Source: Corynebacterium accolens (lineage in GTDB: Bacteria > Actinomycetota > Actinomycetes > Mycobacteriales > Mycobacteriaceae). Taken from it: a DNA stretch of 14,900 nt. Location of the stretch: contig NZ_CP100376.1 in NCBI RefSeq assembly GCF_030515985.1, positions 2,234,665-2,249,564 of the forward strand, in the 5' to 3' direction. The notes below the pieces were generated by a model, which did no database searches, was not told the DNA's origin, and saw only the letters and a list, made by a program, of their open reading frames with translations. Positions 815 to 12,505 of this stretch are shown one piece after another. Each line of letters opens with the position of its first letter. Within the stretch, counting starts at the first letter, position 1. Position numbers and translations under genes: made by a program.

Positions 815-2419
815 CTAGATGCGGCCGTTGAAGGCCTGGAGCGCGGAATCCTCGCGGGTGCCGCCGCGGCCATCGCCGTAGTCGGCGTAATCACCAATCC
901 AGGCAATCCGCGATACCCACTTCACGGCCTTATACCCGTGGTTCGATTCCACGCGGGCGCGCACTGGGGCGCCCAAGTGCAGATCGATGTCCTGGTCATT
1001 GCGCGAAATCGCCAAAATGGACTGATTCTCCATGGCGGTCTCGATATCGAAGGCCGCGTAGAAAGGCTCGCGCGGGCGGTTATCGTACATCTTTTGCGCC
1101 AAGCCATAAGACTCGATGAGCACGTAATTGGCGCCTTCGGGGCGGGGGCAGAGTAGCTCGAGGACATCGGCAAGCTTGGGCCCTCCCCACTTGGAGGTCG
1201 CAGACCACCCCTGCATGCAGGTATGCGTGGCGATGTAGGACGTTTGCGGCAGCTCGCGCAACTGCTCAAGGGTGACGGTCTTTTCGGTGCCGTTGACATC
1301 ATCGGCCACGGTAATGGCGTAGTTCTCCCAGCCATTGCGCTTGTACTCGGTCCACTCAGGGGATTCCTTCTCCGTCGGCGGCAGGCCGTTGGTCCAGTGG
1401 AAGGAGGAAATGGGCATCGGCGAGTCCTTGGTCTCCTTGGGCTTGCGCGGGTGGAAGTGGTTCAGCGAAAGCTTGCGGCCGATTTCGGTGAACGAGACCA
1501 AGAAATTATGCGCCCGGGCGCGGTCCGCCAAGGTCCAATAGGACAGGGCAATCCAGAAGATGATGACCGCCACGATGGTGATGACGACGGTGGTAAAGGC
1601 CTGCACATAGCGCTCGGTGGAGACGTCACCGAAGACGATGTGGACCATGTTGTACTCGCGGTGCACGAAGAAGACCAGCACCACGTGGACCAGGATGAAC
1701 GCGGACATCAAGACCATGCCGATAAAGTGCAGCGACCGCGCACCTTGGTGGCCGCCCAGCATCTTTACAAACCACGGGAAGCGCACGCGGATGGCCGGCG
1801 ACATCCCCAGGCCGGTCACCATCATGAAGGGCGCAACGATGAAGATGACGAAGGCGTAGGCGAGTTGCTGGAGGGCATCGTATGGCGTGAAGTGCTCGAT
1901 GCCGGGCGCGCTGAGGCTGATATAGACCTTGAAGGTATCCCACGCCTCCGGGATGATGTCCCAGGAGGTGGGGATGAGGCGCTGCCACAGGCCGGTGGCA
2001 AAGAGCAGCACGACGTACACCAGGCCATTGAGGACCCACAGCATGACCGAAAGGCCGTGCCAGTGGCGGCCCAGGCCAATGTTTTCGCGGCCCGGCAGCG
2101 CCACGACCGGTGACCACGAAAGCTCGTCCATCAAAGAGGTATATACGCCCTCTTCCTTGGGCAGCTTGCGCTTGGTAAAACGCAGCCATTCGGTGCCAGG
2201 CGCGCAGTCATTGCGCCACCACAGGCGCGGCATGGAAGAAAGCATTTCCAGCCCGGAGCGCAAGAGCATGCCGATGAGTACAAAGTTGATGAGGTGCGTC
2301 GCGCGAAGCCACAAAGGAAAATCGGGGTTTTCGCCGAGAGCCAAGACATAGTCCATGGGGAGCGTCCTAGGGAGATAGTTTATGGGAAAAGGGCTATCTC
2401 TATTTTGACGGCTTTTCAT
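815..2419 (-). CDS. Membrane molybdopterin-dependent oxidoreductase with cytochrome b-like N-terminus
   Basis: A 534-residue fusion of two modules. Residues ~38-295 form a cytochrome b561-like membrane part with about five helices (near 40-57, 121-141, 185-205, 230-252, 273-295) and candidate heme histidines H42, H119/H121, H231 and H245. Residues ~335-515 form a sulfite-oxidase-type molybdopterin domain: Cys401 in THTCMQGWSATSKWGG is the expected molybdenum ligand, and GYKAVKWV near 495-502 is a family hallmark. Such proteins pass electrons between a periplasm-side or cytoplasmic Mo centre and the quinone pool; the substrate cannot be read from sequence. Two starts are possible: ATG at 2419 or ATG at 2356 (MDYVLALG). 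Neither has a clear ribosome-binding site, and family proteins usually begin close to the second. It is followed by the HMA-like gene 25 bases downstream. Confidence 0.85.
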   Translation of the reverse strand: MKSRQNRDSPFPINYLPRTLPMDYVLALGENPDFPLWLRATHLINFVLIGMLLRSGLEMLSSMPRLWWRNDCAPGTEWLRFTKRKLPKEEGVYTSLMDELSWSPVVALPGRENIGLGRHWHGLSVMLWVLNGLVYVVLLFATGLWQRLIPTSWDIIPEAWDTFKVYISLSAPGIEHFTPYDALQQLAYAFVIFIVAPFMMVTGLGMSPAIRVRFPWFVKMLGGHQGARSLHFIGMVLMSAFILVHVVLVFFVHREYNMVHIVFGDVSTERYVQAFTTVVITIVAVIIFWIALSYWTLADRARAHNFLVSFTEIGRKLSLNHFHPRKPKETKDSPMPISSFHWTNGLPPTEKESPEWTEYKRNGWENYAITVADDVNGTEKTVTLEQLRELPQTSYIATHTCMQGWSATSKWGGPKLADVLELLCPRPEGANYVLIESYGLAQKMYDNRPREPFYAAFDIETAMENQSILAISRNDQDIDLHLGAPVRARVESNHGYKAVKWVSRIAWIGDYADYGDGRGGTREDSALQAFNGRI

Positions 2420-2439
2420 GGATTAAACAAGCAGGGCGG

Positions 2440-2461
2440 ATTCTAGGGGTCGTTGCAACGA
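2440..2461 (-). promoter_or_regulatory. Possible promoter -10 with 12-bp palindromic operator
   Basis: Reading leftward, TAGAAT (2445-2440) could be a -10 element about 20 bases before the upstream start at 2419. Just upstream sits the perfect palindrome TCGTTGCAACGA (2450-2461), placed where a repressor would cover the -35 to -10 spacer. No good -35 hexamer is visible. The palindrome is seen directly; its operator role is inferred. Confidence 0.3.
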
Positions 2462-2483
2462 TGATGGTTATTTTGGTGTGATA

Positions 2484-2729
2484 CTACCGGTTTGTGTCAG
2501 GGCGTTGCCGAGACAAATTCCTCTGTGCTGCACGCACGAACTTAGCGAGTATGCCGGCATCGCGGGCCAGTGGGGAAGTAGCGGGCAGTTCTGCCAGTAT
2601 TGCTTGCAGGTGTTTGACTGCGCTGTTGGAGCCGTCTCGCGCGTACTCGTAGTCTCCACCGTGTCCGTGGGCTTTGATGAATAGGGCGCACAGGTGTGCG
2701 TCCTGAGCTTCATGAATAATGTCAACCAT
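2484..2729 (-). CDS. Small hypothetical protein
   Basis: An 81-residue soluble protein starting MVDIIHEAQ. A good AGGAG lies 10 bases before the ATG at 2729, and a further G-rich stretch touches the start. An alternative GTG at 2750 would add seven residues and overlap the stop of the upstream small gene. The sequence looks protein-like (helical DAHLCALFIKAHGHGG, then KHLQAILAEL and ILAKFVRAAQRN) with no signal peptide. I do not recognise a family; helix pattern and His/Asp content do not point to one activity. It follows the small membrane protein gene closely, so the two probably form an operon that lies between the oxidoreductase unit and the IS remnant. Confidence 0.55.
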   Translation of the reverse strand: MVDIIHEAQDAHLCALFIKAHGHGGDYEYARDGSNSAVKHLQAILAELPATSPLARDAGILAKFVRAAQRNLSRQRPDTNR

Positions 2730-2742
2730 TCCCCCAGATCTC

Positions 2743-3018
2743 CTAGTCACCCCTTTTCCAAGTGCTTTTTATTTTTCCCGAAGCCCGCCACGCTATGACC
2801 AAGTTAACGACCTGAACGGAGGTTAGCCTCATAATCCAACCGACCCCTTTTTGTTCGGACTCCGCCTGTTTCGTGATGTTTACGTCACTACATTCAGCAG
2901 GATCGGGCTTACTACATTCAGCAGGATCGGGCTTCCCAGAGGTGAGAATTGCGATTGTGCATACAAGTCCCATAAAAAGAGGGACAAATATGGGAAACTT
3001 TGTTGTACTAGTCACCAT
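2743..3018 (-). CDS. Small putative membrane protein with duplicated octapeptide
   Basis: A 91-residue product with one clear hydrophobic segment near residues 8-26 (FPIFVPLFMGLVCTIAIL) and a second weaker one near 62-77. Right after the first helix there is an exact duplication of KPDPAECS, caused by a 24-bp tandem repeat in the DNA. The start ATG at 3018 has only a weak TAGG upstream. The proposed left end of the IS remnant is only some 27 bases upstream of the start, so its native promoter may have been lost. I do not recognise a family. The C-terminus is basic (KIKSTWKRG). The tight junction with the next small gene supports a real two-gene unit, but the coding status is less certain than for its partner. 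Confidence 0.4.
   Translation of the reverse strand: MVTSTTKFPIFVPLFMGLVCTIAILTSGKPDPAECSKPDPAECSDVNITKQAESEQKGVGWIMRLTSVQVVNLVIAWRASGKIKSTWKRGD
2887..2934 (+). repeat. Perfect 24-bp tandem duplication
   Basis: Two identical, directly adjacent 24-base copies (2887-2910 and 2911-2934), each starting ACTACATTCAGC. The unit is a multiple of three and, on the minus strand, encodes KPDPAECS twice in the small membrane protein. Perfect identity suggests a recent slippage event or an actively varying repeat. Confidence 0.9.
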
Positions 3019-3045
3019 AAACAGGCCTATGCCGACTAGCAGTAG

Positions 3046-3329
3046 TGAGGTTACCCTCGTTTAGTGGACACCCGATTAGTACGGATCTTGTGTCCGTAGG
3101 AGAGGATGTTCATTGTGAGTTCGTCAAGGAAGAAGTACACCCCGGAGTACCGGCAGGAGGCCGCCAGACTGGTCATTGAGTCTGGGCGCCCAATCGCTCA
3201 TCAACACCAAGCGCTTGCACTCGTGGTGCGGCTATCGCTCGCCGAACGCCTTCGAAGCCGCCGGATCAGCTACACTTACTATCGCATCTTGATTAAATCC
3301 CCGTGTCCACTTTCCGGGGTTCGGGCCCA
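3046..3329 (+). mobile_element. Internally deleted IS3-family element (MITE-like remnant)
   Basis: The block is framed by inverted AGTGGACAC (3063-3071) and GTGTCCACT (3303-3311). Extending outwards, both ends begin with TG and show partial complementarity (TGAGG.. on the left; reverse-complement TGGGCC.. on the right, ending at 3329), which is how IS3 ends usually look. Inside, the first ~30 codons of an OrfA are joined directly to the last ~30 codons of an OrfB, so most of a normal ~1.3-kb element is missing. I see no target-site duplication. The flanks do not join into one gene, because the right flank is a siderophore permease and the left flank is unrelated. Outer limits are approximate. 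Confidence 0.7.
3106..3292 (+). pseudogene. IS3-family transposase remnant (OrfA start joined to OrfB end)
   Basis: From a start at 3106 or, more likely, GTG 3115 (GGAGAGG just upstream), the frame encodes SSRKKYTPEYRQEAARLVIE, the classic N-terminus of an IS3 OrfA helix-turn-helix protein. Near 3198-3203 the homology switches frame to NTKRLHSWCGYRSPNAFEA, the classic C-terminus of the OrfB DDE integrase, ending at TGA 3290-3292. All catalytic Asp/Glu residues are lost, so the product cannot transpose. A copy of this size could only be moved by a related full-length transposase elsewhere. Confidence 0.75.
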
Positions 3330-3508
3330 CCGAAAGAGATTGGATAATCTCCCAGCGTGATAGATAAGGGCACTAGAAGTAGGGCCAATATGGCGAGGAT
3401 GAAAGTGGCAGATAGCTGCCACGGGCGCCAAACAGCTGAGAGCTCAAATAGTTTTGTGCCAATGCGGAAGGCGGGGCGGCCTGGGACAGTATTGCGGTGA
3501 CCATTCAT
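3293..3508 (-). pseudogene. N-terminal fragment of second FecCD siderophore permease
   Basis: The ATG at 3508 overlaps the stop of the upstream permease (ATGA), the usual translationally coupled arrangement of FepD-FepG pairs. The first 60 residues are a good FepG start: a basic N-terminus, one hydrophobic helix (~33-50) and the family signature ITLGDYPISFG. After SFG the frame runs into the IS end and continues with about 11 unrelated residues to a stop. A complete protein would have about 340 residues and 8-10 helices. The rest of this gene and the ABC ATPase gene expected behind it are absent from the window, so an IS-edge deletion most likely removed them. Confidence 0.8.
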
Positions 3509-4572
3509 AGCGCTACCCCCTTCCGCCGGAAGACAAGCACGAAGAATAATGGAGCGCCAATAAAAGCGACGACGATTCCTACTGGTAACTCGCCTGGACG
3601 TGCGATGATTCGGCCAATGACATCAGCTAGCACCAGTAGCGTGGCACCTAATAGGGCGGAATACGGCAAAATCCACCGATAGTCAGGACCCGTGATGGCA
3701 CGTACCAAGTGCGGCACTATCAAGCCAATGAACCCAACTGGTCCTGCCATAGCGGTCGCAGCACCCGCAAGCAGAGAGATAAGGACCATGCCGAAGAGGC
3801 GAGCCCGATCGGTTCGACCACCGAGACTTTGAGCTACATCGTCACCGAGGCTGAGTAAATTTAGAGACGGCGCAGAAGCAAAGGCTAAAACGATACCCAA
3901 GACCAAAAATGGTAATACTCCCCAAAAGACGTCTAGACCACGTCCCGCTACCGAACCTACGGTCCAAAAACGCATACGGTCCAGGTTGGCCTCTTCTGCC
4001 AGAATGAGGCCTGTAGTGATCGAATTCAACACGGCAGATAAGGCTGCGCCACTAAGCGTAAGAGTGAGCGAACTAGCATTGCCTCCATTGATGCGTCCCA
4101 GGCCGAAGACAATGATGGTTGCACTTACAGCGCCCAAGAAGGCAGCCGCAGTTGTTGCAAACATACTGATCGATCCAAAGACTGCGAAACTGGAAACTAC
4201 AGCTAAAGCGGCACCAGCGTTGACCCCAAGAATGCCTGGATCAGCGAGCGGGTTTCGGGTGTGGCCTTGAATTAAAGCGCCAGCTACTCCGAGGGAAGCG
4301 CCCACTACGATTGCGATCAAGGTCCTCGGTATACGGAGCTCGAAGAGTACGCGCTGTTCGAAGTTTAGAGCAGTTTCACGGTGCGAAGGAACTTCTCTGA
4401 GAGCAGATATGACATCGGTTAGTGGAATACTTCTAGCTCCGACAGCGATACTCAAGCAAACTCCGAGGACGAGCAGCACCAAGCACAGTATGAGTCCAGC
4501 AACGCGTCGCGAATAGGTGCGGCTTCGAGGCACTTGGGCGCTGTTAATGCTGAAACTGGAATGAATACTCAT
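3505..4572 (-). CDS. Iron-siderophore ABC transporter permease, FecCD family
   Basis: A 355-residue membrane protein of normal family length. It would form half of the inner-membrane channel that imports a ferric siderophore delivered by the binding lipoprotein. Family features are all visible: a first helix near 25-45, RIPRT at 80-84, the NPLADPGILGVN loop at 107-118, and the conserved GPVGFIGLIVPH segment at 277-288 that contacts the ATPase, followed by the final pair of helices. The start at 4572 has only a weak AGGAAC about 16 bases upstream; no better start is visible. It overlaps the truncated second permease. Transcription probably starts at the DtxR-controlled promoter about 240 bases upstream. 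Without its partner and ATPase from this locus it may be non-functional unless other loci supply them. Confidence 0.9.
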   Translation of the reverse strand: MSIHSSFSINSAQVPRSRTYSRRVAGLILCLVLLVLGVCLSIAVGARSIPLTDVISALREVPSHRETALNFEQRVLFELRIPRTLIAIVVGASLGVAGALIQGHTRNPLADPGILGVNAGAALAVVSSFAVFGSISMFATTAAAFLGAVSATIIVFGLGRINGGNASSLTLTLSGAALSAVLNSITTGLILAEEANLDRMRFWTVGSVAGRGLDVFWGVLPFLVLGIVLAFASAPSLNLLSLGDDVAQSLGGRTDRARLFGMVLISLLAGAATAMAGPVGFIGLIVPHLVRAITGPDYRWILPYSALLGATLLVLADVIGRIIARPGELPVGIVVAFIGAPLFFVLVFRRKGVAL

Positions 4573-4814: not shown

Positions 4815-4844
4815 AATATATGCACTGTAGGTTAGGTTAGTCAA
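4815..4844 (-). promoter_or_regulatory. Leftward sigma70-type promoter for the permease gene
   Basis: Read on the minus strand: TTGACT (4844-4839) as -35, an 18-base spacer, and TATATT (4820-4815) as -10. The -35 lies inside the iron box at 4832-4850, so a bound repressor would block RNA polymerase. Both hexamers are close to consensus. Confidence 0.6.
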
Positions 4845-4850
4845 CCCTAA
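4832..4850. promoter_or_regulatory. DtxR-type iron box 1
   Basis: TTAGGTTAGTCAACCCTAA matches the 19-base DtxR operator consensus (TTAGGTTAGSCTAACCTAA) at 16 positions by my count. It covers the -35 of the leftward promoter. In corynebacteria DtxR with Fe2+ represses siderophore uptake genes, so the permease gene should be expressed only when iron is scarce. Confidence 0.75.
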
Positions 4851-5015: not shown

Positions 5016-5044
5016 TTGCAATGCGATGTAGGTAAAGCTAACCT
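5016..5044 (+). promoter_or_regulatory. Rightward promoter for the siderophore-binding protein
   Basis: TTGCAA (5016-5021), a 17-base spacer and TAACCT (5039-5044) form a plausible promoter about 80 bases before the ATG at 5130. The -10 lies inside iron box 2, so repression by DtxR is expected. The hexamers are moderate matches. Confidence 0.45.
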
Positions 5045-5046
5045 AA
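5028..5046. promoter_or_regulatory. DtxR-type iron box 2
   Basis: GTAGGTAAAGCTAACCTAA matches the DtxR consensus at 16 of 19 positions by my count; the right half is perfect. It overlaps the proposed -10 of the binding-protein promoter. Together with box 1 it makes the divergent transporter genes an iron-regulated pair. Confidence 0.7.
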
Positions 5047-5129: not shown

Positions 5130-6110
5130 ATGGCAGTAAAGAGGAGAGTGCAGTCAGTTATCGCAGCCGCTATCTGCGCCGGATTGGTTTTGTCAGGATG
5201 CTCGTCGAACGATTCGACCGATGAAGCGGCAACCTCCAAAGTTGCAGAAGACGTGACCATTGAGCATGCACGGGGTACGGATACGTATCCGGTCAATCCA
5301 CAAAATGTGGTTGCCGTGGGGCCGGCTGTTGATAACCTGCTGGAACTTGGAATTAAACCAGCAGCCGTCGTGCAGAATGCAAAAGATAAGAACTCACCCT
5401 GGCGCGAGGGGAAGCTCGATGGTGTCAAGGTGATCGATCAGGCAGATTTCAAAACTCTGCCACAAGAACAAATCGCGGCAATTGAACCCGACTTCATTGT
5501 TGGGGATTACTGGACAATATCTGAGGTTAATTACAAAGAATTGTCTGCAATCGCACCGACTCTCGGCGGCATCTCCGATAAAGGGGAGGGGATTGGCTGG
5601 GAGGCACAGCTAGAAGCTTTGGGTAAGATCTTTAATAAGGAATCCGAAGCGAAGAAAGCTATCGATGAGGATCGGAAGCGTTTCGCTGACGTTAAGGAAA
5701 AATTGCCGAACCTCGCGGGTAAAACCGGCATTGTTTCTCAATTCGCCCAGGGATCCTTTGGTGCCGTTGCAGACCCTGAGGATCCGGGTGCATCCTTCAT
5801 CTACGATTTGGGTATGAAGTTCCCGGATAAGTTGACTGACGGTACGGTTCCAGTTGATAAAGGCCGCGTCACGCTTTCTCCGGAAAACGTATCCCACCTG
5901 GCCGCTGATTTTATGGTTATTTATAACCGCACCGGCTCAATCGAGGAAGTTGAAAATACTCCGGGATACAAAGATTTGCCGCAGGTGAAATCCGGTGCGA
6001 CTCTCGCTGGCGATGAAGCGGTCGTCGCTGGACTCAACAACCCGACGAGCTTGAGTCGAGCTTGGGTGCTGGATAAGACGATGCCGACGCTGGAAAAGGT
6101 TGGAAAGTAG
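5130..6110 (+). CDS. Iron-siderophore ABC transporter substrate-binding lipoprotein
   Basis: A 326-residue exported lipoprotein. The N-terminus has basic residues, a hydrophobic stretch and the lipobox LSGC with the lipid-anchored Cys at residue 24, followed by a Ser/Asp-rich linker. The remainder fits the class III (FepB/TroA-like) binding fold: HARGTDTYPVNPQNVVAVGP near the start of the mature protein, DNLLELGIKPAAVV, then a second lobe ending in a helical tail (SLSRAWVLDKTMPTLEKV). It would capture a ferric siderophore outside the membrane and pass it to the FecCD permease. AAGGAAAAGGG just before the ATG is the likely ribosome site. It lies divergent from the permease gene across two iron boxes, and is followed by a strong palindromic terminator. 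Confidence 0.92.
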   Translation: MAVKRRVQSVIAAAICAGLVLSGCSSNDSTDEAATSKVAEDVTIEHARGTDTYPVNPQNVVAVGPAVDNLLELGIKPAAVVQNAKDKNSPWREGKLDGVKVIDQADFKTLPQEQIAAIEPDFIVGDYWTISEVNYKELSAIAPTLGGISDKGEGIGWEAQLEALGKIFNKESEAKKAIDEDRKRFADVKEKLPNLAGKTGIVSQFAQGSFGAVADPEDPGASFIYDLGMKFPDKLTDGTVPVDKGRVTLSPENVSHLAADFMVIYNRTGSIEEVENTPGYKDLPQVKSGATLAGDEAVVAGLNNPTSLSRAWVLDKTMPTLEKVGK

Positions 6111-6457: not shown

Positions 6458-8314
6458 ATGCCAAGGAACAGCCGGAGCAGGGAAATTTATCCAATTTCTT
6501 ACCGGGAATTATATGTGGAAGAAATTGAAGATATATCGCCATCCATGCGGCGCATTACGCTGAGCGGGGAGCAACTCCAAGACCACGAGCGCGATGGTAT
6601 TTCCGTTCCCTCGCTGGTAAGCCATGGTTTTGACGACGACGTTCGGCTCATCTTCCCGGATCCTGAAACGGGGGAGCGGCCGCACCCAATAGCCCAAAAT
6701 GATGGCAACCTCTTGTGGCCAGAAGCCGTGAAAAACCTATTCCGCACATACACGGTTCGCCACTTTGACGCTGTACGCGGGCGATTAGCCATAGATTTCG
6801 CGCGCCATGGTGAGGGCTTGGCCGAAAACTGGTCCCAGAATGCCCGAATCGGTGACGCCATTTTTGTGGCAGGCCCGAAGTCGTGTGCACAGTTACCTAC
6901 GCACACCGATTGGCTCTTCTTGGCCGGAGACGAGACTGCGCTCCCAGCAATCGGCCGCTGCCTGGAATCACTCCCGTCAGGGCATCGCGCGGTTGCGGTG
7001 GTAGAGGTTCCTACGAGTGCTGATATTCAGAACCTCGATATTTCGGATTCGGTACAGATCCACTGGGCAGTACGTGACCAGGGCGAGGACTTCGTAGAAA
7101 AGGCACGTGCGCTTTTTGAGGAGACTGCTCAGTCGGCATTGCCGGGTGGCGAAGCATATGCATGGGCGGCGGGGGAGGCCTCCCGGCTGAAACCGCTGCG
7201 GCGTTTGTTTAAGGCCTCCGGAATTTCCCCTGAGCATCGGGAAATCACAGGCTACTGGCGGCGTACCAGCCAGAGCGACGCTAAAGAAAGCGCATCGAGC
7301 AGCAGCAATAGTGTTTTGCACAATATCCATGATTTGGCTGAGTTGAATTCGGCCTTTGCGCTTCGCACTGCCGTGCGTTTAGGGCTCTTCCAGGAAATCG
7401 ATGCGGGTGCGAACACGGTCCCTGCTCTTGCTGCTGCGACAGAACTGCACGAGGAGGCGCTACGGAGGTTTATCCGTTACCTGGCGGCTCTTGAACTTGT
7501 CGAAGTTAGCGAAACCACCCTCGCATTGACCGCAATGGGCATGGAACTGGCGGACCCAGATTCAAATGTAGTGCGTTGGTTAAGCGGGCCAGCGCACCTT
7601 GAGGCGATGGCGCTGATGCGCCTTGAGGACAGCCTTCGCACCGGTGGGCCAGCGCTTCAAGGCGAAAAGGGATTGCCGTGGTCAGAATATCTTGGCCAGG
7701 ACCCGCACCTGGCAGCCGAACGCTTTGAGCAAAAGAATGTGAGTGCTGGGTGGACCGCTCCTTCCGCAGCAAAGGAACTGCAGCAGTATCTGGATGACAC
7801 TGCTCGTGTTCTCATCATTGGCCAGGGCGGTGCAGTATATGCAGATGAAATCCTCCGCCGATGCGAGCATGCTGAATGCCGGATTATCACCGATGCTTCA
7901 TCGGAAGCGGTGCTACGGGAAATCGCAGTAGCCTCTCATGCGCGCTGCGAGATGGGCGGCGACGGACGCGGCCTTTCTCCCACCGAGACGGACTATGCGT
8001 GGGCAACTGACGTGATTTTCATCGATCCCTGGAGCATCTTTGGCAGCGAAGAGGTGGCTGCCGAATTAGGCCGCGCGGTTAGTGGGGATAAGTCCCGCCG
8101 GGCTTTTATCCTTACCGAGGTCCTCGAGGAAGCAGGCGGCGATGAGCATTCCTATGAAGAGGACTTGGTGAGGCTTTCCATGTTCGGCACCAAGGTGCCG
8201 ACTCAGGACGATGTCAGCGCTGCTACCGCTGATAGCCGCGCTCTTATTTCTTCTGCCACGGCTGTTGGCTGGGGCAAACACCTCTTCGTCCTGGAAGCAG
8301 AAGCGAATTCCTAA
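6458..8314 (+). CDS. Siderophore-interacting flavin reductase fused to O-methyltransferase-like domain
   Basis: A 618-residue two-part protein. Residues ~10-268 are a SIP/ViuB-type ferric-siderophore reductase: FAD site RTYTVR (96-101), NAD(P)H-site signature GDETALPAI (158-166), AWAAGEAS (235-242) and the family end GYWR (265-268). This module reduces the imported ferric complex and frees Fe2+ in the cytoplasm. A Ser-rich linker (~270-285) leads to a second half resembling class I O-methyltransferases: a winged-helix dimerisation part (~286-370, with LGLFQEI and ALRRFIRYLAALELVEV) and a Rossmann part (~376-616). Its SAM motif I reads IIGQGGAVYA rather than DxGGGxG, so methyl transfer is uncertain. 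It starts after the binding-protein terminator and runs towards a convergent, truncated exporter. Confidence 0.85.
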   Translation: MPRNSRSREIYPISYRELYVEEIEDISPSMRRITLSGEQLQDHERDGISVPSLVSHGFDDDVRLIFPDPETGERPHPIAQNDGNLLWPEAVKNLFRTYTVRHFDAVRGRLAIDFARHGEGLAENWSQNARIGDAIFVAGPKSCAQLPTHTDWLFLAGDETALPAIGRCLESLPSGHRAVAVVEVPTSADIQNLDISDSVQIHWAVRDQGEDFVEKARALFEETAQSALPGGEAYAWAAGEASRLKPLRRLFKASGISPEHREITGYWRRTSQSDAKESASSSSNSVLHNIHDLAELNSAFALRTAVRLGLFQEIDAGANTVPALAAATELHEEALRRFIRYLAALELVEVSETTLALTAMGMELADPDSNVVRWLSGPAHLEAMALMRLEDSLRTGGPALQGEKGLPWSEYLGQDPHLAAERFEQKNVSAGWTAPSAAKELQQYLDDTARVLIIGQGGAVYADEILRRCEHAECRIITDASSEAVLREIAVASHARCEMGGDGRGLSPTETDYAWATDVIFIDPWSIFGSEEVAAELGRAVSGDKSRRAFILTEVLEEAGGDEHSYEEDLVRLSMFGTKVPTQDDVSAATADSRALISSATAVGWGKHLFVLEAEANS

Positions 8315-9500
8315 AGAGGAACCTCGGTAGGACAAAATGCCTCGAGCATAACCTTTTATTTCCGGACCACGGTCCCGGACGGGAGCCGGGGGCCGTGGCT
8401 GCCATAAGTGTGGTGAACACGGTGAAGTAGGCGAACGTTGTCCAGCCGATCCCGTGGGTGAGGGTCATCAGCACCGTGCAGACGGATACGCCGAGTGCGC
8501 TACCAAGTTGGGTCGCGATGCGGCCCGCAGCACTGGCATGGACGACTTCACCTTTGGATAAGCCGTGGTAGGTCGCGGACATCGTGAGCACCGTAAGGGC
8601 TCCGATTCCGCCGCCGCGCACGAATAGCCCACAGCCTTGAAGGATGAGCCAGCCTGCCGCCTGGCCGGTGGGAAAGGCGAAAGGTAGCGTTCCGATAATA
8701 GCGGCGGCAATGCACATGTAGACGGTCTTCCGCGTACCCCAACGGGCGATGAACTTTTCCGACGCCGAGCGGCTGAAATACGCGCCCACACTCTGTAGTG
8801 CTAGCAGAAGTCCCGCATGCAGTGCGGTGTAGGCGTAGCTGCTCTGATAGTGCAGTGGGATAAGGAAGAGCCCGCCATAAAACACGGTGCTTGCAATGGC
8901 CAGCGTTGCCCACGCTGAGGAAAAGGAGGCGTGGGTAAATAGGCGGACATCGATAAGCGGCGATGGTGCCCGGAGCGCATGCAGGACAAAGTATCCAATC
9001 AGCCCCGCGCCGGCGGCGAGGAGAATTATGCTTGTCCAAGAGTTCATGTGCCCGATGGTGGTAAAGCCATAGACTGCCGCGAGCAAACCTGGCGCGAGCA
9101 AGAGGTATCCCATGCGGTCCAGCTGGGCTGCAGGGTCTGCTGGGGTCCGTTCTAGATAGTGAGCGGCTAGGGCGATTGCGGCGATGCCGATGGGGACGTT
9201 GATGAGGAGGATGGCGCGCCAGCCGATGGCATCAACAAGCAGCCCGCCCAGTAGCGGGGCAATCGCAGGCGCAATTACCGCTGGTAGACCGATTGCGGTG
9301 ATGGCGCGTGTGGCCTGGTCCTTTCCGGCATTAGTGACGATGAGGGTCTGCATCACCGCCACCGAGAAGCCCGCCGCGAATCCCTGCAGGATTCGGAAGG
9401 CGATGAGCATATCGATATGGGTCGATACCCCTTGGCCAGCCACGTTAATTATATATGGCCGGGATGGACCCTGTCCATTTTGTTGATGGCTTGTTTCCAT
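8244..9500 (-). pseudogene. DHA2 (EmrB/QacA) family exporter, truncated at the N-terminus
   Basis: The frame is open for 418 codons, but exporter homology starts only around residue 30 with IDMLIAFRILQGFAAG, which is helix 4 of this family, and continues through GLPAVIAPAIAPLLGGLLVDAIGWRAILLINVPIG. The first three helices (about 90 residues, including the motif A loop) are missing; residues 1-28 are unrelated and not hydrophobic. At the other end the reading runs past the expected C-terminus (about FTTLMAATAP) into ~45 odd residues and overlaps the convergent SIP gene by 71 bases. A full protein would have 14 helices and ~460-500 residues. It was perhaps a siderophore or drug exporter; activity is now unlikely. 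Confidence 0.65.
8367..8398. terminator. GC-rich hairpin between SIP gene and exporter remnant
   Basis: CCACGGTCCCGG (8367-8378) pairs with CCGGGGGCCGTGG (8386-8398) with one bulge and a seven-base loop. It lies about 50 bases after the SIP stop, in the tail of the exporter frame. No T-run follows on either strand, so it is at best a two-way weak terminator. Confidence 0.35.
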
Positions 9501-9836: not shown

Positions 9837-11242
9837 TTATGAATCTTTTAGTTTCAAAGCTTTTGCCACGGCTAGGTGGACCTGCATGTGTGACTCTTCT
9901 TCGGGTTGCACATTAAGATCTTGGTAACGGTAAATGCAGCGGGATCCTCCGCCCCCGCCCCCAATTTCAAATACGCCTACAACAGAAGCCTCGAAGAGTA
10001 AATTCAGCCATATTCGAGCTTCTTCTTCGCAGACATTCTGTGCTTGAGCGACAGTGAGCCAATCTTCCATGAAGAAATTTCTTTTCCTAAGCTTCCGGAC
10101 AAGATTGAGGACACTCTGAAAATTATCAATAGTATGACTAAATTCATCACGAAGCTCTTCAAGGACATGCATGCAATATTTGGCCTCGGCTGAATAAATG
10201 TCCTCTCGCTCAATTAAAGAATGACCATTTCGCTGAGCTTCTTCGAGGCAAGAGATAGAAAAGGCTACTATGTCCCTCGGTCGCCCCATGGTCCGTTTCA
10301 ACATATAAGTTTCAGAGCGGGCGCGTTGCCGCATTTCTCCATCGTAGAACAGCGAATGCCAAGTCGAGGAACTACTTTGCTTGTTGCCGACACTACTTTT
10401 AATTCTAGCTTCGATTACTTTGATTAGGTCATCGTCACTCCAATCCAAGTACTCGATATCTTGACTCACTTTATTTCGATCGTTGAATGAAATTGCCTGC
10501 CACAAATCTGTTCTAAGAAAAATAATTACAGTTGCTAATCCTTTGGGCTTAACTTTCAAGTTAATATCACGCATGGCCTTGATGGCCCCGATGATTAGAA
10601 GCCTTGCTTCCTCGCTGCCGTCCCATGCTTCATCAATCCTGTCGATAAGTACAGTCCGAGGGAATTCGGCAAGGATTTCTAAAGCAAATTTTTGAAACTG
10701 ATTAAATACTTGGATAAATTTATCGTCTAATGTCTGCTGAGATGTGGTATCAAACTCTACTCCCCCTAAATCTGCCACGGTAGAGATATTAGGTAAATTA
10801 AGTTTCTTTATGCGACTGAGCCAGTCAAACATCTGATTGAGTCGACCTTGTCGATCTTGAACCTGAAGATCATGGAGGAATTTATTGAAATTGCTCAGCT
10901 GTTTCGAAGACATTTTTTCCTGTATCGAACCGAGCGCTGCAAGGTAGATTAGCAATTCCCATGCAGTAGTGTATGCATTCGTCTCTGCGACGCCCTTTTC
11001 CCGCAACAGCTTGTGAGTTTCAAAAAATAATTTGTTAATTCAAGATCGACTGTCCTGTGGCTAAAAGCGTCCCTGATATGGGCAAATAGAGCGGTCTTTC
11101 CTGAGCCTTTCCTACCCAATATCAGTTGCTTCCCTGAACGGACCCCATCGACGGCTCCAGTTTCAACAAAATAAGCCTCGAGTTGTTCGTCGCTTTCAGC
11201 GTCAATACGGCCTAAGTTGATTTCGTTGAGTGATGATTCCAT
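9837..11242 (-). pseudogene. Sll1717-like P-loop ATPase, one-base frameshift
   Basis: Two overlapping frames together encode one ~468-residue protein. The first (ATG 11242, strong GGAGGGATA just upstream) contains Walker A GRKGSGKT at residues 43-50. The second (from the break to TAA 9837) contains Walker B-like VLIDRIDEAWDG (~198-209), IIFLRTDLW (~240-248) and a conserved MGRPRDIV segment. The IDRIDEAWDG form is typical of P-loop ATPases of the Sll1717 type, related to STAND/KAP-like NTPases; their role is unknown and several occur in defence islands. The frames join perfectly by a -1 step at codon 73 in a run of six T, so a lost T, a sequencing error or ribosomal slippage could explain it. 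The gene is AT-rich beside its neighbours and flanked by IS debris, which suggests transfer. Confidence 0.75.
11021..11027 (-). other. T_TTT_TTG heptamer at the ATPase frame break
   Basis: In the zero frame the minus strand reads TAT TTT TTG, that is X XXY YYZ = T TTT TTG, a canonical -1 slippery heptamer. A -1 shift here gives TAT TTT TTT GAA and continues into the long second frame without any further change. Without slippage translation stops 24 codons later. Confidence 0.45.
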
Positions 11243-11356: not shown

Positions 11357-12191
11357 CTAATTCCACAGTTCGGTTTCCACCTCGGCTGGGGTTCGGTATC
11401 CCAGGCTTTGGTGGAGCCTTACCTCGTTCCACCATGACACCCCACTCGAATGTCGCGATTTCTACCTCGACAACGTTATTCCACCTGCGATTATAGATGA
11501 GTTCGCCTCTTGTGAGGAGCCGTTAACGTTTTCAGCTAGAGCATTGTCATTTCAGTCGCCAACAGTTCCGGTGGAAGCAGTGGTCCCGTGCTGGGCGAGA
11601 CGCTGGTTGTAGACAACGCTGACGTACGGCGAGCCGTGATCCGAATGGTGAATGAGACCTGTTGTTTCCCTCGCACTTACAATCGCTTGATTGAGTGCTT
11701 GTAGCGGCAATGCCTGCAGTGCGCATGGGCCCGACCCCCGAAGCCTTTCTTCGTGCGCACGTAGGTAATGTCGGCCACCCACAGCTTGTTTAAGGCCTTG
11801 GGCTTTGAACTCACGCCCCACTAAATCCGGGCGCAGATCCGGCACGTTGAGGTGTACGGGTTGTGGTAGGTGATCTGCCTGTGCCTGTGCCAGAAACACC
11901 GGCCAGGCGCATCAGCCGGGCGGTTTGTTCACGACCGATGTCGATTCCGTCACGGTCAAGCGCATGCCACATCTTTCGCACGCCGTAGACACCGTAATTA
12001 TCCCGATGAACAGCACTAATGCGTTCAACTAGAACAACCGTCACGAAGGCAACGAGCACTTAAGCCCACGGGCTTTGGACTGGCGATAACCACGCAAGGT
12101 GATGAACCCACCAGCCCGGTTATTTTTCAACGCCGATGCAGATGAACTCGACAGAGAAATGATTCCGGTATTTATCGATGAACCGGATCAT
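11357..12191 (-). pseudogene. IS3-family OrfB transposase, multiple frameshifts
   Basis: The ATG at 12191 overlaps the OrfA stop (ATGA). Family pieces appear in changing frames: MIRFIDKYRNHF, then a stop and a shift near 12118 into AGGFITLRGYRQSKARGL; VERISAVHRDNYGVYGVRKM; DLRPDLVGREFKAQGL; IHHSDHGSPYVSVVYN (second catalytic Asp present); ALAENVNG (catalytic Glu), preceded by an in-frame TGA where Ser is expected; ELIYNRRWNNVVEVEIATFEW, then a one-base insertion before the final YRTPAEVETE. The first catalytic Asp region is in a shifted frame. With at least four frame breaks and one nonsense codon it cannot be functional. It ends at TAG 11359-11357. Confidence 0.8.
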
Positions 12192-12505
12192 TTCTTAACG
12201 TTTGGGGCCTGGTCGTGAGGCGAAAAAGCTGACGCAGCCTTCAGCAACTCGTTGGTATCTCGAAGCTGGTGATTTTCGCGGCGTAGCCTGGCATTTTCGG
12301 CGGCCAAATCTTCAGGCACAGGCTCTGGGATGTTTCCCGAACGACGAGCCTGCTGGGTCCATTGACGAGCTGTGTGCCATGAAACCCCCAACTTTGGAGC
12401 TACTGCCTGGCACGCGGCCTGCATCGACATGTTTTCCGCCAAGATGCGGTCTTCCACGAGACGGACCACGCGGTCCTTTGCATCTTGGTCAAATTTTCTT
12501 GGCAT
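12188..12505 (-). CDS. IS3-family transposase OrfA
   Basis: A 105-residue helix-turn-helix protein of normal OrfA length that binds the IS ends and, after a -1 frameshift, is made as an OrfAB fusion in active family members. It starts PRKFDQDAKDRVVRLVED and has a Leu-zipper-like tail (ENARLRRENHQLRDTNELLK) typical of IS3 OrfA oligomerisation. Its frame is open although OrfB is destroyed. The stop overlaps the OrfB start. Alone it cannot move the element. Confidence 0.8.
   Translation of the reverse strand: MPRKFDQDAKDRVVRLVEDRILAENMSMQAACQAVAPKLGVSWHTARQWTQQARRSGNIPEPVPEDLAAENARLRRENHQLRDTNELLKAASAFSPHDQAPNVKK

Follow-up and report, generated by a model that had tools for sequence, protein, structure and literature searches.

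A siderophore-interacting reductase family member fused to a likely pseudo-methyltransferase in Corynebacterium accolens and other actinobacteria

A gene of Corynebacterium accolens encodes, in a single open frame, a member of the siderophore-interacting protein (SIP) family of reductases followed by a second half that is likely a pseudoenzyme derived from class I O-methyltransferases of the DnrK/RdmB type. According to the reading that we prefer, and to which we give a probability of about 0.48, slightly below even odds, the protein is a SIP-family reductase whose pseudo-methyltransferase half would dock or hold the siderophore and whose winged-helix part would dimerise. The window referred to below is the whole stretch of DNA analysed, 14,900 nucleotides; its features are collected in Table 1.

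Results

Table 1. Features of the fusion gene and of the importer genes upstream of it, in window positions.
Feature	Position	Strand	Residues	Evidence or remark
FecCD-type siderophore permease	3505..4572	-		PF01032, E 2.5e-94; divergent from lipoprotein gene
DtxR-box-like site	4832..4850	+		3 mismatches
DtxR-box-like site	5028..5046	+		3 mismatches
Ferric-siderophore-type substrate-binding lipoprotein (Peripla_BP_2)	5130..6110	+		PF01497, E 1.7e-21
SIP::pseudo-methyltransferase fusion gene (putative)	6458..8314	+	618 aa	ORF, Pfam, AF2 model, fold search
SIP FAD-binding domain	6515..6883	+	20-142	RTYTVR at 6743-6760
SIP NAD(P)H-side domain	6908..7264	+	151-269	PF04954, E 1.9e-31
Motifs within the NAD(P)H-side domain	GDETALPAI 6926-6952; GYWR 7250-7261	+		
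Ser-rich linker, predicted disordered	7268..7318	+	271-287	pLDDT <50 at 271-287
Winged-helix / O-methyltransferase dimerisation domain	7352..7519	+	299-354	PF08100, 26.8 bits (cut-off 25.6)
Rossmann-type domain, putative pseudo-methyltransferase	7778..8302	+	441-615	
Degenerate SAM motif I, IIGQGGAVYA	7814..7843	+	453-462	Ile for acid; DnrK alignment and tally
HSYEED, conserved H..E.D helix	8147..8164	+	564-569	Aligns with DnrK region R1
GWG turn, signature of the altered class	8267..8275	+	604-606	At DnrK substrate-lid region R2 by alignment

Architecture of the fusion protein

The whole N half has the SIP fold and passes both Pfam cut-offs (FAD_binding_9, 87.2 bits against 23; SIP, 109.5 bits against 26.3). 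It belongs to the same family as FscN of Thermobifida fusca (PDB 4yhb), YqjH, ViuB and SbSIP and, judging from the family, is probably a cytoplasmic flavin-dependent ferric-siderophore reductase resembling FscN. Solved SIP members end near GYWR, after 250-300 amino acids, whereas the fusion protein runs on for 350 residues beyond this motif (a short length is a usual trait of SIPs, not a defining one) and adds a half of about 330 residues with a methyltransferase fold. Basic residues at positions 243, 245, 248 and 249 lie in a stretch that seems to match the basic triad of the siderophore pocket, Lys45/Lys236/Lys239 in SpSIP numbering (sections of PMC11965169).

The preliminary description had noted SIP motifs, a Ser-rich linker and a methyltransferase-like half in the same frame, all of which is confirmed; a class I methyltransferase fold with a winged-helix dimerisation domain is present in the C half, as borne out by the winged-helix Pfam match, the fold search and the alignment with DnrK. 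The fold matches listed for this half are methyltransferases or methyltransferase-like enzymes, and the closest solved structures include RdmB, a 10-hydroxylase, and TamK, a 10-decarboxylase. The motifs that in summary hold the amino-acid part and the ribose of SAM (as outlined in sections of PMC3440578) are absent from the fusion protein: IIGQGGA stands in place of the E/DxGxGxG motif I, and the acidic ribose-binding residue after strand 2 is replaced by Thr478, which aligns with a Glu of DnrK. Pfam Methyltransf_2 has no match in the protein at E 0.1. The protein is a SIP family member with an added half, and it is not classed as a methyltransferase because the SAM motif was looked for and is missing.

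The AF2 model of the fusion protein has a pTM of 0.81 for its two domains, and that of a distant Glycomyces homologue reaches a pLDDT of 92.9 and a pTM of 0.90. Such high values with a disordered linker between the two domains, obtained again for the Glycomyces protein, suggest that the two halves may pack against each other in a fixed, rigid way. The GWG turn is placed by the model between the last two strands, and the alignment would put Trp605 at the cleft.

Distribution in actinobacteria

A protein identical to the fusion protein is encoded in genome G001, and the closest named proteins are from C. accolens (88%), other Corynebacterium species (87%) and C. macginleyi (83%). The protein search returned 118 relatives, 96 of them with 550 aa or more, most commonly named 'siderophore-interacting protein' in the database. 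Named relatives are found in Corynebacterium, Tsukamurella, Propioniciclava, Kineosporia, Mumia, Aeromicrobium, Pseudonocardia, Nocardiopsis, Streptomyces, Actinoplanes, Nakamurella, Glycomyces and Actinomadura, and contig searches add, among others, Williamsia, Rhodococcus, Leucobacter, Pseudoclavibacter, Dactylosporangium and Cellulosimicrobium. Of 242 Corynebacterium genomes, 122 give a match at 1e-20, and at least 59 have an open frame of at least 500 aa that also covers the C half (split over two contigs in one of the 59). Twenty further places, picked mainly for a listed match that covered little of the C half, were checked with a C-half profile; 19 have the C half in the same frame, and it is absent from the remaining one, in G246, a genome outside the 59. 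Two outcomes had been named in advance as telling against the preliminary description, the lack of a methyltransferase fold after residue 285 and a fusion absent from relatives or produced by a frameshift; both were checked, the fold is there, and the fusion recurs across actinobacteria.

Some variants were encountered along the way. Corynebacterium sp. SN15 has one in-frame stop between the SIP and the C half (L054, 7001-7816 on the + strand and downstream). In a second, more distant fusion (L022, 5929-9693), the gene adjoins one for a protein that combines an ABC_membrane with an ABC_tran domain, reminiscent of IrtAB, and a Peripla_BP_2 gene is nearby. In the proteins P0114, P0103-P0111 and P0117, SIP domains are also annotated together with several methyltransferase Pfam families in Streptosporangium, with PF09981 in proteins of about 350 aa, and with PF00255, glutathione peroxidase, in Actinocatenispora.

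Two classes of fusion

The residues of the SAM site were tallied over 117 non-redundant fusions, thinned from 164 by removal of near-duplicates with common 4-letter words; database proteins below 550 aa, locus ORFs without GDE[ST]A[LV]PA and tails below 200 aa had been dropped beforehand, and in rows without GYW the end of the SIP half was placed by distance. The motif I acid (position 453) is lost in 109 of them and replaced by Val, Ile, Leu, Ala, Thr or Phe, while Asp is found in the other eight, the acid-keeping class. The degenerate SAM site and the probable loss of methyl transfer that had been proposed for the single protein are therefore features of the family, and local decay of one gene's SAM site is rejected by the same count.

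The glycine-rich loop is mostly kept in the altered class (Gly455 in 103 and Gly457 in 85 of 109), and position 478, the ribose site, is acidic in 37 of these 109. Both observations would be expected if the C half still bound SAM and methylated its substrate despite the altered motif, but this is very improbable in view of the general loss of the acid at 453, the Thr at 478 of the protein studied here and the missing Methyltransf_2 match. It has also to be considered that the remodelled site, with hhhhGxGxx where hhDhGxGxG would stand, accommodates a different nucleotide, for example NAD(P)H, and feeds or senses the reductase. Dinucleotide-binding Rossmann motifs have a hydrophobic strand before GxG, and the loss of the acid leaves just such a strand. 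However, the third Gly of GxGxxG is not conserved and the listed fold matches are all of the methyltransferase kind, so that the probability of this alternative is remote.

The loss of the acid is accompanied by a new signature near the C-terminus. Trp605 is present in 106 of the 109 altered fusions versus none of the eight acid-keeping ones, and Gly604 in 108 of the 109. In the tally, loss of the acid thus coincides with the presence of the GWG signature (Fisher p 2.4e-10, for rows that are related and not independent). His564, Glu567 and Asp569 are found in 77, 84 and 62 of the 109 altered rows, respectively; His564 was dropped as a marker of the altered class because it also occurs in five of the eight acid-keeping fusions. 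A loose letter test for His-x-Trp is passed by none of the altered but by seven of the eight acid-keeping fusions; its value as a proof of lost catalysis is weakened by DnrK itself, which has Asn-Trp at the place where His-x-Trp is found in many of its relatives, so that methylation would survive the loss of the His by itself. The adenine-site letters GD[FMLIW] fail to separate the classes (one of eight acid-keeping versus four of 109 altered fusions).

The tally of 117 rows overstates how universal the GWG turn is. Among 13 further fusions missed by the motif filter, six have GWG, four GLG and three neither, and none of the 13 has the acid in a D-x-G-x-G setting. The three with neither turn, from three Corynebacterium genomes (L026, L174 and L175), are a third, more distant kind of fusion with a more strongly altered site, which matches the C-half profile at only 1e-25 to 1e-27 and in which motif I is unrecognisable and the GWG turn absent.

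In the profile alignment His564 falls at DnrK Gln296 in region R1 (numbering that presumes an offset of four between chain and paper), and the GWG turn at R2, the substrate-lid region of DnrK according to sections of PMC9976750. On this sequence comparison, the SAM side of the site would be lost and the substrate side would carry a signature of the family, which leads us to favour a pseudoenzyme that holds a ligand rather than an inert scaffold. The preliminary suggestion that ligand binding has been kept stands in outline, since a family-specific Trp lies at the lid position; binding itself we infer. Alternatively, the C half might catalyse a reaction on the siderophore other than methyl transfer, such as decarboxylation, hydroxylation or hydrolysis, just as RdmB and TamK, which are among its closest solved relatives, act on anthracyclines. 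R1 and R2 set the reaction type in enzymes of the DnrK type (in the parts of PMC9976750 that treat them), and the fusion has conserved residues in both. But RdmB needs SAM (sections of PMC9976750 and PMC10491745), for which the fusion has lost the motif, and Arg303 of DnrK, which starts the decarboxylation, aligns with Val571, a variable position among the fusions. A different catalysis is thus rather improbable.

Phylogeny and selection

A tree of the methyltransferase half was computed with 54 altered rows, thinned from 109, of which the long-branch row L079 was then left out. The 53 altered C halves are on one side of a branch with an SH-aLRT of 97, versus nine acid-keeping fusions and 11 standalone methyltransferases. 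In the SIP-half tree all fused rows of both classes together with five unfused ones form a group of 67 rows with a support of 91 (not starred), and the other 34 unfused rows lie outside this group. Because it fits both trees, the reading of one ancient fusion with an active methyltransferase, followed by loss of the SAM site in a big lineage and by occasional loss of the C half, is put forward here; several independent fusions may be an alternative.

The altered C half and the SIP are near-obligate partners. Among the best 7997 candidates scored in the protein search the altered C half appears only fused, apart from pieces of 332 aa and 213 aa, and below the altered-type rows the scores fall to methyltransferases with a Methyltransf_2 domain. 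A search of 296 genomes of the class with the C-half profile gave some match in 109. In each of the ten best loci, headed by the copy in G001, the frame also contains a SIP motif, and eight of them have the GW turn and two GLG; past the first dozen or so, the matches are mostly frames too short for a fusion, with some longer ones.

The loss of the SAM site is old, common to the family and under selection. The segments ARVLI.GQG.AVYADEILRR, GGDEHSYEED and TAVGWGK are invariant in ten close sequences, one of which (L001) is identical to that of the window. Omega in eight of ten Corynebacterium pairs ranges from 0.09 to 0.18 for the SIP half, from 0.09 to 0.16 for the winged helix and from 0.18 to 0.30 for the Rossmann part; the closest two pairs, in which dS is only 0.01-0.08 across the three parts, gave 0.08 and 0.25, 0.64 and 0.31, and 0.15 and 0.26, respectively. 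The pairs share sequences, and L033 and L114 give identical values. Evolution of the Rossmann part is roughly two times faster than that of the SIP half, as would be expected equally of a looser structural role and of diversification of the ligands. An assembly artefact, a frameshift join or a decaying gene might be suspected because the adjacent MFS and importer genes of the window are truncated. This reading is rejected by the single open frame in many independent genomes and by omega values well below 1, and its probability is practically negligible.

Within the C half, conservation is highest in the winged helix, with a relative entropy of 1.58 versus 1.21 and 1.19 elsewhere, and in eight of the ten pairs this part is constrained like the SIP half. 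The dimer scaffold of the preliminary description holds up in outline on this ground, and dimerisation is what we infer from it. DnrK is a dimer as well (in the sections of PMC9976750 that describe it). It could be argued that dimerisation is the sole function, that only the winged-helix interface matters and that the Rossmann part is inert mass. Gly455, Gly457, His564, Glu567, Gly577 and GWG are, however, conserved in the Rossmann part, which is more than inert mass needs, and we know of no requirement of SIPs for dimers. A pure scaffold deserves consideration, but it is unlikely.

Importer neighbourhood and iron control

The lipoprotein gene lies 347 bases upstream of the fusion gene on the same strand, and both genes are probably in the same operon. 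The lipoprotein and the permease match models of enterobactin and other siderophore importers, all below the cut-offs. Both DtxR-like sites are located between the permease and the lipoprotein genes; with what we take to be the DtxR-box consensus, two sites were found versus 0.01 expected, and none of 200 shuffles had two. Sixteen other loci were scanned, several of them short and only part of them checked for site placement: L033 has the same pair upstream, six have a site at 3-4 mismatches (L028, L029, L027, L114, L116 and L127), four only at 5 mismatches (L024, L030, L031 and L126), and five have none at up to 5 mismatches (L025, L032, L113, L115 and L132). Sigma-70 promoters in the window are at the level of chance (three found versus 3.8 expected from shuffles), nine terminators were found versus 6.3 expected, and Rfam has no match in the window at gathering thresholds.

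A substrate-binding protein (SBP), FecCD or importer-type ATPase gene is encoded within 2.5 kb in 31 of 43 fused versus four of 35 unfused SIP loci, a comparison that is biased, since the unfused loci are mostly proteobacterial, that has SIP frames of 345-559 aa in neither group, and that includes three fused loci with less than 600 bases on one side; in the other 12 fused loci an importer gene is absent within 2.5 kb. Within Corynebacterium, a Peripla_BP_2 gene is present within 1.8 kb in eight of ten fused loci (seven by Pfam, one by 94% identity to the gene of the window), which stem from seven best-match genomes rather than a random draw and are what remains of 12 regions without L021, a short contig, and L028, the near-identical relative of the window. 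The two loci without such a gene are L023, a split copy, and L026. In tblastn searches with the genes of the window, SBP or FecCD was found in five of the ten fused but in none of 20 unfused Corynebacterium loci, and the importer ATPase in two of ten and two of 20; the 20 unfused loci come from 19 genomes, and many of them may represent a single orthologous place. The commonest 25 of 73 families in the 79 neighbour ORFs of these 20 loci do not include Peripla_BP_2, although one such ORF is possible, since a family with a single match can rank below the first 25.

The importer operon of the window is cut at 3330-3505, and the window lacks a second FecCD permease and an ATPase, both of which L033 has at 2158-4076; G001 carries a 95% copy of the L033 importer ATPase on a different contig. 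Three stretches, at about 3046-3201, 3203-3330 and 2438-2507, are dispersed repeats that occur many times in closely related Corynebacterium genomes. The first two adjoin the cut, and a 156-base repeat is the most frequent of the three; the repeat beside the importer has no unusual fold as DNA (z -0.51). An EmrB-type MFS exporter gene (8244-9500, - strand) runs on into the end of the fusion gene and covers no more than residues 97-442 of a 453-aa relative in L029; full-length copies are present in L029 and L033. The stretch at 9837-11242 (- strand) comprises a P-loop-like part (NACHT/AAA, below cut-off) and an ORF of 389 aa that has no match in Pfam. L028 has this stretch, the aligned parts of L029 and L033 lack it, and transposase-like fragments at 11552-12505 adjoin it.

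Discussion

The constituents of the fusion are known. SIP reductases have been described (sections of PMC11965169), and so have DnrK, RdmB and the loss of methyl transfer in RdmB, which still needs SAM (sections of PMC9976750 and PMC10491745). No literature on a SIP::methyltransferase-like fusion was found in open-licence PMC; a subscription paper may exist. The C half has the same type of fold as the anthracycline enzymes DnrK, RdmB and TamK, but in contrast to them it lacks the motif I acid and a Methyltransf_2 match, carries GWG at R2 and is joined to a reductase. Two further systems are comparable. IrtA is a mycobactin importer with a SIP domain, and thus another actinobacterial SIP domain fused to a second siderophore-handling module, as seen in the PDB matches; its partner is an ABC transporter, whereas here it would be a pseudo-methyltransferase. 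Dre2/Ciapin1 (anamorsin) also joins a SAM-methyltransferase fold without detectable SAM binding to a redox module of iron metabolism (sections of PMC3440578), but it is eukaryotic, has its domains arranged differently and is without strand 1 and the glycine loop, which the fusion keeps.

In the proposed mechanism, an iron-repressed operon of the DtxR type would import a ferric siderophore via the lipoprotein/FecCD importer. The pseudo-methyltransferase half would dock the siderophore beside the flavin and/or hold the iron-free ligand, so that the release of Fe(II) is not reversed, and the winged-helix part would make the enzyme a dimer. By alignment, the C half seems to have lost the SAM-anchoring residues but not its fold, nor the greater part of the glycine-rich loop, and it appears to have gained conserved features of its own around the old substrate cleft, namely, the GWG turn and the H..E.D helix, the His of which is common to the acid-keeping class. 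The docked siderophore might conceivably be a catecholate, a weak guess by analogy, made because the C half comes from a line of aromatic-binding proteins, with relatives that bind phenolic aromatics, and because of the enterobactin-type importer matches below cut-off. Coupling of iron release to siderophore modification by this protein, which had also been envisaged, is not supported; only the acid-keeping minority (8 of 117) could plausibly methylate.

A more far-reaching idea, speculative and in our view doubtful, is that an ancient fusion of a SIP with a catechol-type O-methyltransferase would act as an iron-release ratchet in one protein, which reduces Fe(III) and then caps or captures the freed ligand, thus preventing it from binding the iron again. 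The minority would cap it by O-methylation, and the large class would capture it without chemistry in a pocket closed by GWG. If true, this would add a step of a new kind to the handling of siderophores, and one that is widespread among actinobacteria.

To our knowledge, little is known about the intracellular dismantling of ferric siderophores in actinobacteria and the fate of the emptied ligand. The fusions constitute a large and conserved group of likely reductases, found in common actinobacteria of skin and soil and in antibiotic producers, with a second half that has no database name, and the same arrangement across these organisms seems to point to a conserved way of handling siderophores. 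They would also be a further example of a pseudoenzyme in which the loss of a cofactor site is old, shared and under selection. If the C half holds or modifies the ligand, iron reduction would be linked to ligand fate in one enzyme, and, since fusions with and without the acid exist side by side in nature, this question is directly testable.
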